Source of the DNA: Candidatus Sphingobacterium stercorigallinarum
GTDB lineage: Bacteria > Bacteroidota > Bacteroidia > Sphingobacteriales > Sphingobacteriaceae
Reading direction: 5' to 3'
Length of the DNA stretch: 64,000 bases
Assembly (NCBI GenBank): GCA_019115805.1
Contig: DXCW01000220.1
Span: 1 to 64,000, forward strand
Shown here piece by piece: positions 37,348-40,692 of this stretch. Numbering within the stretch: the first letter of the stretch is position 1; each line of letters starts with the position of its first letter. The position numbers and the translations under genes were made by a program. The notes beneath the pieces were generated by a model that worked only from the letters and a program-made list of their open reading frames with translations, was not told where the DNA came from and did not search any database.

Positions 37348-38376
37348 TTAAAAGGCACTTGGTTTTAGGCGCAAACCCGCCGATTCGTCAAGCCCATACA
37401 TCAAATTCATATTCTGTACCGCTTGTCCCGAAGCGCCTTTTATAAGATTGTCTGTCGCACTCAAAATCAACAAGGTGTCACCCTGCTTTTGCAGTTGAAG
37501 CAATCCTTTATTGGTATTCACGACCTGCTTTAAGTCAATATCCATATCAGACAGATGGGTGAATGGGTGTCCGGCATAATAATCACGGTACAACTCGGAC
37601 GCTTGCTCCAGACTCAGGTCTGTCTGTAGATAAACCGTTGCGAAAATCCCCCTAGGAAAATCACCGCGTTGCGGGACAAAGTTAATCCGTTTGGCTGCAC
37701 GTTGCACGAGTGTCTCAGCAGGATCGGCCGGCGGAGGTAAAAAGCCGGCTTGCAGTTGGTCTAGGGACTCTGAAACCTCTTGTAAGTGCCGATGGACAAA
37801 GGCCTGGTAGATGGATAAGTTATTGTTACGCCATGAAAAATGCGTCGTTCCTGATGGCCGTTGACCCGCTCCGGTTGAACCTGTCGTTGCGTGCACCTGC
37901 ACCTGCTCAGGCAACAAAGCCTGCTCTGCCAGTGGCAAGAGTGCTAGTTGAATGGTTGTTGCAAAACAACCGGGATTCGCGATGTAATGCGCCGACTCGA
38001 TCTTCGCCCGATTTAGTTCCGGCAGCCCGTAGATAAACTGACGCCCCTGGAAATCACTATTTTCTCGTAGCCTAAAATCCTGGGATAAATCAATGATGCG
38101 CACGTCTGGGTTGAAGGGATCAGCCGCTAGAAATTTTCTCGCATCACCATGCCCAACACACAAAAACACGACATCGATATCGGAATGAAAAGATTCCGAG
38201 AAGGTGAGCTCCGTATCTCCAAATAAGTCCTGATGTACCTGGTAAACTTTATTACCTGCATTTGACGCACTGTGCGCAAACACGATTTCAACTTGAGGGT
38301 GATGAATCAATATCCGAATCAGTTCCCCTCCGGTGTATCCGGCTGAGCCGATAATACCTACTTTAATTTTTTTCAT
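37348..38376 (-). CDS. argC: N-acetyl-gamma-glutamyl-phosphate reductase
   Basis: VGIIGSAGYTGGELIRIL; NPGCFATTIQLALLPL. Confidence 0.96.
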   Translation of the reverse strand: MKKIKVGIIGSAGYTGGELIRILIHHPQVEIVFAHSASNAGNKVYQVHQDLFGDTELTFSESFHSDIDVVFLCVGHGDARKFLAADPFNPDVRIIDLSQDFRLRENSDFQGRQFIYGLPELNRAKIESAHYIANPGCFATTIQLALLPLAEQALLPEQVQVHATTGSTGAGQRPSGTTHFSWRNNNLSIYQAFVHRHLQEVSESLDQLQAGFLPPPADPAETLVQRAAKRINFVPQRGDFPRGIFATVYLQTDLSLEQASELYRDYYAGHPFTHLSDMDIDLKQVVNTNKGLLQLQKQGDTLLILSATDNLIKGASGQAVQNMNLMYGLDESAGLRLKPSAF

Positions 38377-38437: not shown

Positions 38438-39625
38438 TTAGCCGTTCTGATTTACTTTATGCCAAATGATGGTTTGGTTGCCAAAAATTTTAGAGAAGCC
38501 CTTCACATCGTCTCCGGTGTACCCTTCATTCATCTCCCCATAACTTCCAAACTCGTTCGACATCAAGTCATGCGCCGAATCAATTCCGAGAATTACGAAA
38601 CGATGCGGATGCAATTCAATATAGACTTTCCCACTGACCGTTTGCTGAGAGCGCTGCAGAAACGCTTCAATATCGCGCATAACCGGATCATGCATTTGAC
38701 CTTCGTGCATATAATTTCCGTAAAATGCAGCCAACTGATCTTTCCAGGACAGCTGCCATTTAGTAAGTGTATGTTTCTCCAAAGTATGGTGTGCTTTGAT
38801 CAAAATCAGCGGAGCGGCCGCCTCAAATCCAACGCGTCCCTTGATCCCGATAATCGTATCACCTACGTGGATATCGCGCCCAATCCCGTACGGTTGGGCC
38901 AAAGCTTGTAAATCTTGAATAACACGAACCGGATCTTTCCTTTCTCCATTCAGCGCCACCGGCTCACCTTGCTCAAAGTCAATCGTAATTTGTTGCGGCG
39001 TTTCAGCCGTAACAGGTGTGGGCCAAGCTGACTCGGGAAGATATTGATTGGAGGTCAACGTTTCCGCTCCCCCTACCGAAGTTCCCCATAAGCCTTTATT
39101 TATTGAGTATTTCGCTTTTTCCGCTGAATAGGCGACGCCATGTTGGTTCAGATACGCAATCTCATCCTCTCTAGAAAGTTTTTGATCCCGAATTGGGGTA
39201 ATGATTTCGACGCCGGGAATCAGTGTCTGAAAAATCATATCAAACCGAACCTGATCATTACCAGCACCAGTGGAGCCGTGCGCTACACATTCCGCTCCTA
39301 TGCTTTTTGCATAATTTGCGATGGCGGTCGCTTGGCAGACCCGTTCAGCTGACACCGATAAAGGATAGGTCGCATTCTTCAACACATTCCCAAAAATCAG
39401 ATATTTGATCGTGTCCCGATAATAATCGGAGGTTTCGTCAATTGTAGTATGTGACTGAACGCCAAGCTCATAGGCACGTCGCTCAATACCCTTTAGCTCA
39501 TCTTCTGAAAAGCCTCCTGTATTGACAATGACTGAATGTACTTCTAAACCTAGGTCACGCGATAGATAGATACAACAGAACGAAGTATCCAATCCACCAC
39601 TAAATGCTAATACTACTTTTTTCAT
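38438..39625 (-). CDS. argG: argininosuccinate synthase
   Basis: VVLAFSGGLDTSFCCIYL; AHGSTGAGNDQVRFD. Confidence 0.97.
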   Translation of the reverse strand: MKKVVLAFSGGLDTSFCCIYLSRDLGLEVHSVIVNTGGFSEDELKGIERRAYELGVQSHTTIDETSDYYRDTIKYLIFGNVLKNATYPLSVSAERVCQATAIANYAKSIGAECVAHGSTGAGNDQVRFDMIFQTLIPGVEIITPIRDQKLSREDEIAYLNQHGVAYSAEKAKYSINKGLWGTSVGGAETLTSNQYLPESAWPTPVTAETPQQITIDFEQGEPVALNGERKDPVRVIQDLQALAQPYGIGRDIHVGDTIIGIKGRVGFEAAAPLILIKAHHTLEKHTLTKWQLSWKDQLAAFYGNYMHEGQMHDPVMRDIEAFLQRSQQTVSGKVYIELHPHRFVILGIDSAHDLMSNEFGSYGEMNEGYTGDDVKGFSKIFGNQTIIWHKVNQNG

Positions 39626-39682: not shown

Positions 39683-40375
39683 TTACGAGGAAATCACTGC
39701 AGCCACCATTTTCTTCGTGGATTTCCATATTTTAGCTTCAATACGTTTCAATAAAGACTGCTTTTTGGCAATCCGCTCCAACCGCTCTTTCGCTTCCGCT
39801 CGACGTTGGATCTTCTCCTTAAGCTCTCTCTCCTTTTCAACAGGATCCCATAACATAGCTGTGCACATGCAGTTTTTGCGATCTTTAGACACTAAAATAT
39901 CGTAATTAACACACGATTGACAGCCCTTCCAGAATTCCTCATCCTGCGTTAATTCCGAATAGGTTACCGGTTCATACCCCAGATCGGAGTTGATTTTCAT
40001 CACCGCTAAGCCCGTCGTCAAGCCGAAAATCTTAGATTTAGGATAGCGTTCCCTCGATAATTCGAAGATACGTTTTTTTATGACCTTCGCCAGCCCCACC
40101 TTCCGGAAAGCGGGATTTACAATCAGACCGGAATTCGCCACATAATCGCCATGTCCCCAGGTCTCAATGTAGCAAAACCCTGCCCAGGTTCCGTCTTTGT
40201 GAAGGGCGATTACGGCCTTCCCTTCTTCGATCTTACGCGCTACATATTCCGGTTTGCGGCGCGCAATGCCGGTTCCACGAGCTTTCGCAGATTCGAACAT
40301 CTCGTTACAAATAGCCTCCACATACTTTACATGTTGTGCTTCGGCGGGAATAATCAAAAAATCAGAGATTGTCAT
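39683..40375 (-). CDS. GNAT family N-acetyltransferase heading the arg operon
   Basis: NPAFRKVGLAKVIKKRIFELS acetyl-CoA-binding motif; C-terminal GCQSCVNYDILVSKDRKNCMC cysteine cluster; co-directional with argG/argC. Confidence 0.85.
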   Translation of the reverse strand: MTISDFLIIPAEAQHVKYVEAICNEMFESAKARGTGIARRKPEYVARKIEEGKAVIALHKDGTWAGFCYIETWGHGDYVANSGLIVNPAFRKVGLAKVIKKRIFELSRERYPKSKIFGLTTGLAVMKINSDLGYEPVTYSELTQDEEFWKGCQSCVNYDILVSKDRKNCMCTAMLWDPVEKERELKEKIQRRAEAKERLERIAKKQSLLKRIEAKIWKSTKKMVAAVISS

Positions 40376-40492
40376 TGAATAATGTCGACCTAAAAATTAA
40401 TACTCATTGAGCATTTATACCATTTGTTTACTTGGTGGGCCATACGTCGAGCCCGACGGATAGCAAAACGGAGAATTTGTCTGCCTTGGTTA

Positions 40493-40627
40493 TCAAGCTC
40501 GAGGCAGAATAGGTCGTCGGAGCCGAAGAATCGGGCAGTGGAATAAACGCAAATACATATACCTTCTCCAGCCCATCATCTTATCGATGGCGGTACGTAC
40601 GGGAGGATATATTTTATTACAATTCAT
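40493..40627 (-). CDS. putative Arg-rich leader peptide, 44 codons
   Basis: ATG-AAT-TGT... translates MNCNKIYPPVRTAIDKMMGWRRYMYLRLFHCPILRLRRPILPRA*; 9 Arg of 44; inside the predicted GNAT-argG-argC 5' leader. Confidence 0.4.
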   Translation of the reverse strand: MNCNKIYPPVRTAIDKMMGWRRYMYLRLFHCPILRLRRPILPRA

Positions 40628-40659
40628 TTTCTGCTTAATCCTTTTGTAATCAGACGCTG

Positions 40660-40692
40660 CAAAACTAATCAATAGTTTTTTCTTTTATGCAA
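40660..40692 (-). promoter_or_regulatory. predicted promoter of GNAT-argG-argC operon (TTG-N22-TAGTTTTG)
   Basis: Minus-strand TAGTTTTG matches TAnnTTTG; implies about 280-nt leader. Confidence 0.45.

Follow-up and report, generated by a model that had tools for sequence, protein, structure and literature searches.

The window, by which we mean the whole 64,000-nucleotide stretch of DNA that was analysed, carries on its minus strand an operon for arginine biosynthesis in which a GNAT acetyltransferase gene is followed by argG and argC (Table 1). The GNAT assignment is marginal, at 20.6 bits against a Pfam cut-off of 20.7, and the nearest solved relatives of the protein are PA4794-type GNATs. 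The remainder of the arginine pathway is encoded by a second arg operon on contig 157 of the same genome (L168; argD-argF'-argB-proC-argE), in which argF' is an N-acetylornithine carbamoyltransferase and the last gene is argE-like; an Arg leader was not seen in the short gap upstream of that operon.

The GNAT gene starts at 40375, and about 120 nt upstream of it lies the stop codon of an unannotated 44-codon ORF. The initial annotation had read this ORF as a leader with nine Arg codons; the ORF is present, with eight Arg codons among its 44 and the ninth in an in-frame upstream extension from a TTG. The promoter motif that had been proposed ahead of it, TAGTTTTG, is also there: 79 of 80 relatives have TAnnTTTG ahead of the leader's ATG, compared with 2.8% of shuffles, and a TTG at the -33 spacing is weakly kept (21/80 relatives).

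Table 1. Features of the arginine operon and of its leader, in positions of the window.
Feature	Position	Strand	Basis
TTG, putative -33 element	40692-40690	minus	weakly conserved
-7 promoter element TAGTTTTG, Bacteroidota type	40660..40667	minus	motif conserved in relatives
44-codon leader ORF, MNCNKIYPPVRTAIDKMMGWRRYMYLRLFHCPILRLRRPILPRA then stop, ending PILRLRRPILPRA then stop	40493..40627	minus	8 Arg codons; conserved in relatives
P1 5' strand CGACCUA, in Arg-Arg-Pro-Ile codons	40510..40516	minus	complementarity, alignment, MFE fold
P2 5' strand UCUGCCU, Leu-Pro codons	40502..40508	minus	covariation
Kissing loop 5' side GAGCU, in P2 loop just ahead of stop codon	40496..40500	minus	covariation
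P2 3' strand AGGCAGA, hairpin around leader stop codon	40480..40486	minus	covariation
P3 hairpin	40439..40464	minus	covariation
Kissing loop 3' side GGCUC, in P3 loop (AGCUC type)	40449..40453	minus	covariation
P4 hairpin, with a short T-run after it in this genome, at about 40396-40392	40399..40415	minus	MFE fold
P1 3' strand UAGGUCG, -17 to -11 of GNAT ATG	40386..40392	minus	complementarity, alignment, MFE fold
GNAT acetyltransferase, first enzyme gene of operon	39683..40375	minus	Pfam PF00583
argG, argininosuccinate synthase	38438..39625	minus	TIGR00032 above cut-off
argC, N-acetyl-gamma-glutamyl-phosphate reductase	37348..38376	minus	TIGR01850 above cut-off

The GNAT gene was searched for through the genus, family, order and class, and the DNA upstream of the matches was collected. 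The comparison set comprised the regions ahead of this GNAT gene at 84 loci, from Sphingobacterium, Parapedobacter (g4) and two neighbouring genera (g16 and g19). An in-frame ATG lies exactly 44 codons ahead of the leader stop at 80 of these loci, and the N-terminal half of the peptide varies widely among relatives despite this near-constant length. The C-terminus reads P-[V/I]-L-R-x-R-R-P-I-L-P-R-A-stop in relatives, and the residues kept at the amino-acid level include several other than Arg, namely Pro -14, Val/Ile -13, Leu -12 and Pro -4. Six synonymous codons are in use both for Leu at codon -12 (80/84 loci) and for Arg at codon -11 (83/84), and four for Pro at codon -14 (78/84); these three positions lie outside the RNA helices described below, so the constraint acts on the leader peptide. 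Among moderately close pairs, codons 2-28 have a pN/pS of 0.37 and codons 29-43 one of 0.27.

The pair CGA CGA at codons -9 and -8 (40519-40514, minus strand) is invariant at all 84 loci. The second CGA is held by its place within helix P1, and the first, outside P1, is left without explanation by that helix. Rarity was rejected as a cause, since 16% of the Arg codons used by long ORFs of the window are CGA; the pair may be one that is translated slowly. In a family-wide list of 98 sequences the presence of CGACGACC was itself the selection filter, so codon invariance in that list is no evidence. A peptide-profile search found a single copy of the leader in this genome.

By these comparisons the leader ORF is real, strongly conserved and translated-looking, and it places codons for arginine upstream of an operon that makes arginine, as is seen in amino-acid attenuators. 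The initial annotation had named a lack of conservation of the ORF or of its Arg codons as one ground for giving up its proposal, and both are kept in relatives.

One conserved RNA fold was found, and its 5' strand falls in the Arg codons. P1 encloses P2 and P3, and the loop of P3 kisses the loop of P2. The hairpin that had been suspected around the leader stop is real and covaries, being P2. An alternative pairing of CTCCGACG with CGTCGGG, suggested at the same time, is not conserved, and the CGUC in question forms one side of P3. Two contacts had gone unnoticed, namely the conserved pairing of the Arg-Arg-Pro codons with UAGGUCG and the kissing pair between the loops of P2 and P3.

Covariation was assessed against a null in which the 3' columns were re-evolved on the tree in 300 replicates. 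The observed level was reached in 0/300 replicates for P2, 0/300 for P3, 2/300 for the kissing pair and 13/300 for P1 alone, a mostly invariant helix with modest covariation. It was reached in 0/300 for all helices jointly; taken together, the helices exceed the tree-based null. In an alignment of 41 sequences, double-change cells numbered 99, where column shuffles gave 32.5 +/- 4.2 and slid versions of the structure at most 51; P1 is undercounted in this figure because MAFFT places it one column out in part of the alignment. Cells are paired in 96.5% of cases in P2 and 96.6% in the kissing pair, all seven pairs of P3 show changes on both sides, and the kissing pair exchanges A-U for G-C in 13 of the 41 sequences. 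Single-pair covariation was not significant against a strict whole-alignment null built on all columns, which is why helix-level tests were used.

The unconstrained MFE fold of the window's leader includes P1, P2, P3 and P4 unprompted and is barely more stable than shuffles (z = -1.42). A covariance model matched 28 genomes of the family sample, with exactly one copy per genome and all of them in the four genera of the comparison set. Its matches end at the GNAT start where GNAT coordinates are known, and a partial match in G096 ends somewhat earlier. In several further genera of the family no P1 could be recognised.

A compact covarying fold with a kissing loop could also be expected of a ligand-binding riboswitch that overlaps an ORF by chance. 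We regard this as very improbable, given the strong codon-level constraint, which includes six-fold synonymous exchange outside the helices, and the recurrence of the peptide end elsewhere in the class on a different RNA sequence. The leader RNA also lacks a match in Rfam, at the gathering threshold or at E values up to 5.

The partner of the Arg codons in P1 is the region just ahead of the GNAT start, and P1 is predicted to make that start harder to open. Averaged over the 84 loci, the predicted cost of opening positions -17 to +3 of GNAT is 10.2 kcal/mol in free RNA and 6.4 kcal/mol with the P1 5' strand masked, and it is greater in free RNA at 79 loci. The real P1 5' strand ranks above its shuffles in predicted opening cost at 82/84 loci. 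In the window itself, masking this strand lowers the predicted opening energy of the start region from 8.3 to 3.5 kcal/mol. Prediction and conservation thus agree on a downstream start that is sequestered by pairing with the leader ORF, as in translational attenuators. In Bacteroidota, initiation proceeds without Shine-Dalgarno sequences, and structure around the start modulates it (PMC6847099), which makes a sealed GNAT start region a plausible off state.

Because conservation places the partner of the Arg codons at the GNAT start, the evidence points to control of translation, and we consider it probable that the locus is a ribosome-mediated translational attenuator of arginine biosynthesis that works through ribosomes slowed at Arg codons. 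The transcript would begin just upstream of the 44-codon leader. When the end of the leader is free of ribosomes, the Arg-Arg-Pro codons would pair with the sequence before the GNAT start, and P1 would close a compact domain made of P2, P3 and the kissing pair between them, so that GNAT is not translated. Under a shortage of charged tRNA-Arg, ribosomes would stall at the Arg codons near the leader end and cover the P1 5' strand; the GNAT start would then be freed, and GNAT and probably also argG-argC would be translated. Given a footprint of the usual size, a ribosome whose A site holds one of the final four Arg codons would reach over the P1 5' strand. A terminating ribosome, though brief, would open P1 too, so the dynamic range is uncertain. 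Comparison or calculation supports the conserved ORF, the constraint on its amino acids, the helices and what P1 is predicted to do to the start. From these we infer that the leader is translated, that ribosomes stall on it, that arginine is the signal and that the response runs in the direction given here.

The initial annotation had favoured another outcome of the same stalling, namely classical transcription attenuation, in which P4 would or would not serve as an intrinsic terminator depending on where the ribosome stands among the Arg codons. The hairpin that it placed with an ATTTTTA just before GNAT does exist, and a hairpin at the P4 site recurs within the genus; the T-run is not conserved there. 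P4 followed by a T-run occurs in the window and in part of the genus, Daejeonella-like loci have CCG..CGG plus a T-run, and two loci from another family of the class (L128 and L130) have short leaders of the RSPRR/RSLRRRP type upstream of GNAT (MTTILLNLRSPRRQPNTAG and MKQVLLNYRSLRRRPYAAG, each followed by a stop), then a strong canonical terminator and a competing fold. The latter two are apparently classical arginine transcription attenuators. For the locus studied here we judge this reading unlikely, as the T-run is often missing in the genus (GTGCAAAATTAATAGG type), P4 forms in the fold without competing with P1-P3, and the Arg codons find their conserved partner at the GNAT start and not in P4. 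Across the genus no competing antiterminator pairing and no conserved intrinsic terminator were found. What had been claimed as an Arg-codon leader controlling an arginine operon is, on conservation and covariation, strongly supported, and its terminator mechanism is unsupported in the genus. The finding is real; in place of a terminator, the mechanism now proposed is a translational attenuator that seals the start.

The conserved P-[V/I]-L ahead of the late Arg codons and the terminal P-R-A suggest, from sequence comparison, a further slowing of the ribosome by the nascent peptide. A stronger version of this idea is a metabolite-sensing arrest peptide, in which the nascent leader, still inside the ribosome, binds arginine or a metabolite related to it, and the RNA fold is then set by the ribosome so arrested. 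Nascent peptides are known to sense small molecules in the ribosome, TnaC responding to Trp and SpeFL to ornithine. The conservation of the non-Arg residues, the length held at about 44 codons over a diverged N-terminus, and the many diverged leaders of other families that have a hydrophobic end followed by R-x-stop on unrelated codons would all suit such a peptide. However, an arrested ribosome that opens GNAT would induce synthesis at high arginine, unless arginine relieves the arrest, and the feedback is explicable by the Arg codons alone. Searches of the leader peptides against Pfam and NCBIfam gave chance-level matches and nothing more, so that no curated family is matched. We think this alternative quite improbable, and retain the translational attenuator that responds to charged tRNA-Arg.

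The leader is also of interest for what it may replace. The ArgR C-terminal domain was found in 0/41 genomes of the genus, by a search that detects it in other bacteria as a control, and in 8/149 genomes of the class. Three loci with both GNAT and ArgR were read (L162, L163 and L165), and in each the argR frame lies directly upstream of GNAT, with no leader there. This suggests, from few genomes, that ArgR and the leader replace each other, and in this branch the leader switch apparently takes the role that an arginine repressor protein usually has.

Outside the family, leaders were scored as ORFs of 15-70 codons that have three or more Arg among their final 15 residues and an Arg within the final two. 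Such Arg-ended leaders precede the same GNAT gene at 23/45 loci in other families, against 8.4% of shuffles and 4/45 on the antisense strand. Their ends include FFPRR, FCIRR, FRSRI and YFFRV, and SRSSRSRA in Myroides; an Arg leader was not found in several members of the class. It is possible, and we offer it tentatively, that an ancient arginine leader-peptide system, spread over much of the class, replaced ArgR, that its peptide is an arrest peptide with a hydrophobic-x-Arg-x-stop end conserved between families, and that the downstream switch diversified into the start-sealing kissing-loop domain in Sphingobacterium and its neighbours and an intrinsic terminator elsewhere.

As a separate observation, a second hairpin with a recurrent UACGY loop lies 3' of diverged leaders at eight loci (L074, L083, L090, L119, L126, L135, L140 and L142), and the leaders before these hairpins end in RR or RV and a stop. 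At L074 and L085 a CUUACG stretch is complementary to a CGUAAG directly before the GNAT start.

If the proposed mechanism is true, it would give a clear and testable answer to how arginine synthesis can be regulated in Bacteroidota, most of which do so without ArgR. It would also describe a structurally distinct translational attenuator, in which the regulatory codons themselves form the start-sealing helix and a kissing loop is added, and would provide a natural sensor for arginine. Unannotated leader ORFs, moreover, may carry regulation in this phylum. No account of an arg leader in Bacteroidota turned up in the literature that was searched; a Bacteroides transcript survey mentions leader-like small ORFs, with arginine not named (PMC7366714).

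On sequence evidence the locus would work like a translational attenuator, and its anatomy fits the broad kind of amino-acid attenuators. It shares with the trp, his and ilv attenuators a short leader with codons for the product amino acid, and under the proposed model the ribosome would, as in those systems, select between folds and provide feedback on the operon. It differs from them in that the first gene's start region pairs directly with the Arg codons, in that no terminator is conserved in the genus, in the conservation of non-regulatory residues and in the kissing-loop domain. In the erm and cat translational attenuators, as proposed for this locus, a ribosome stalled on the leader frees a sequestered downstream start; those systems are based on Shine-Dalgarno sequences, their stalling is induced by a drug and they involve no amino-acid feedback. 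The fungal arginine attenuator peptide is a leader conserved at the amino-acid level before an arginine-biosynthetic gene; unlike the leader described here, it is an unrelated short peptide that acts in eukaryotic scanning and arrests ribosomes at high arginine.

The nearest working parallels are orf34-speF and rbfL. The speF leader orf34/SpeFL of Salmonella and E. coli contains consecutive Arg codons at which pausing under low arginine alters the mRNA fold, and its translation helps to unfold RNA that hides the downstream start (PMC6386406). It resembles our locus in having an Arg-codon leader and, by the prediction made here, a downstream start hidden in RNA, and differs in that it controls ornithine decarboxylase and not an arginine-biosynthesis operon, works with Rho and RNase G, and encodes an unrelated peptide. 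In Staphylococcus aureus the Arg-codon leader peptide rbfL responds to a limitation of arginine and affects translation downstream of it (PMC13009471); there, unlike in our model, the paused ribosome blocks the downstream site, so that expression falls, and the gene controlled is an unrelated one, the biofilm regulator rbf.
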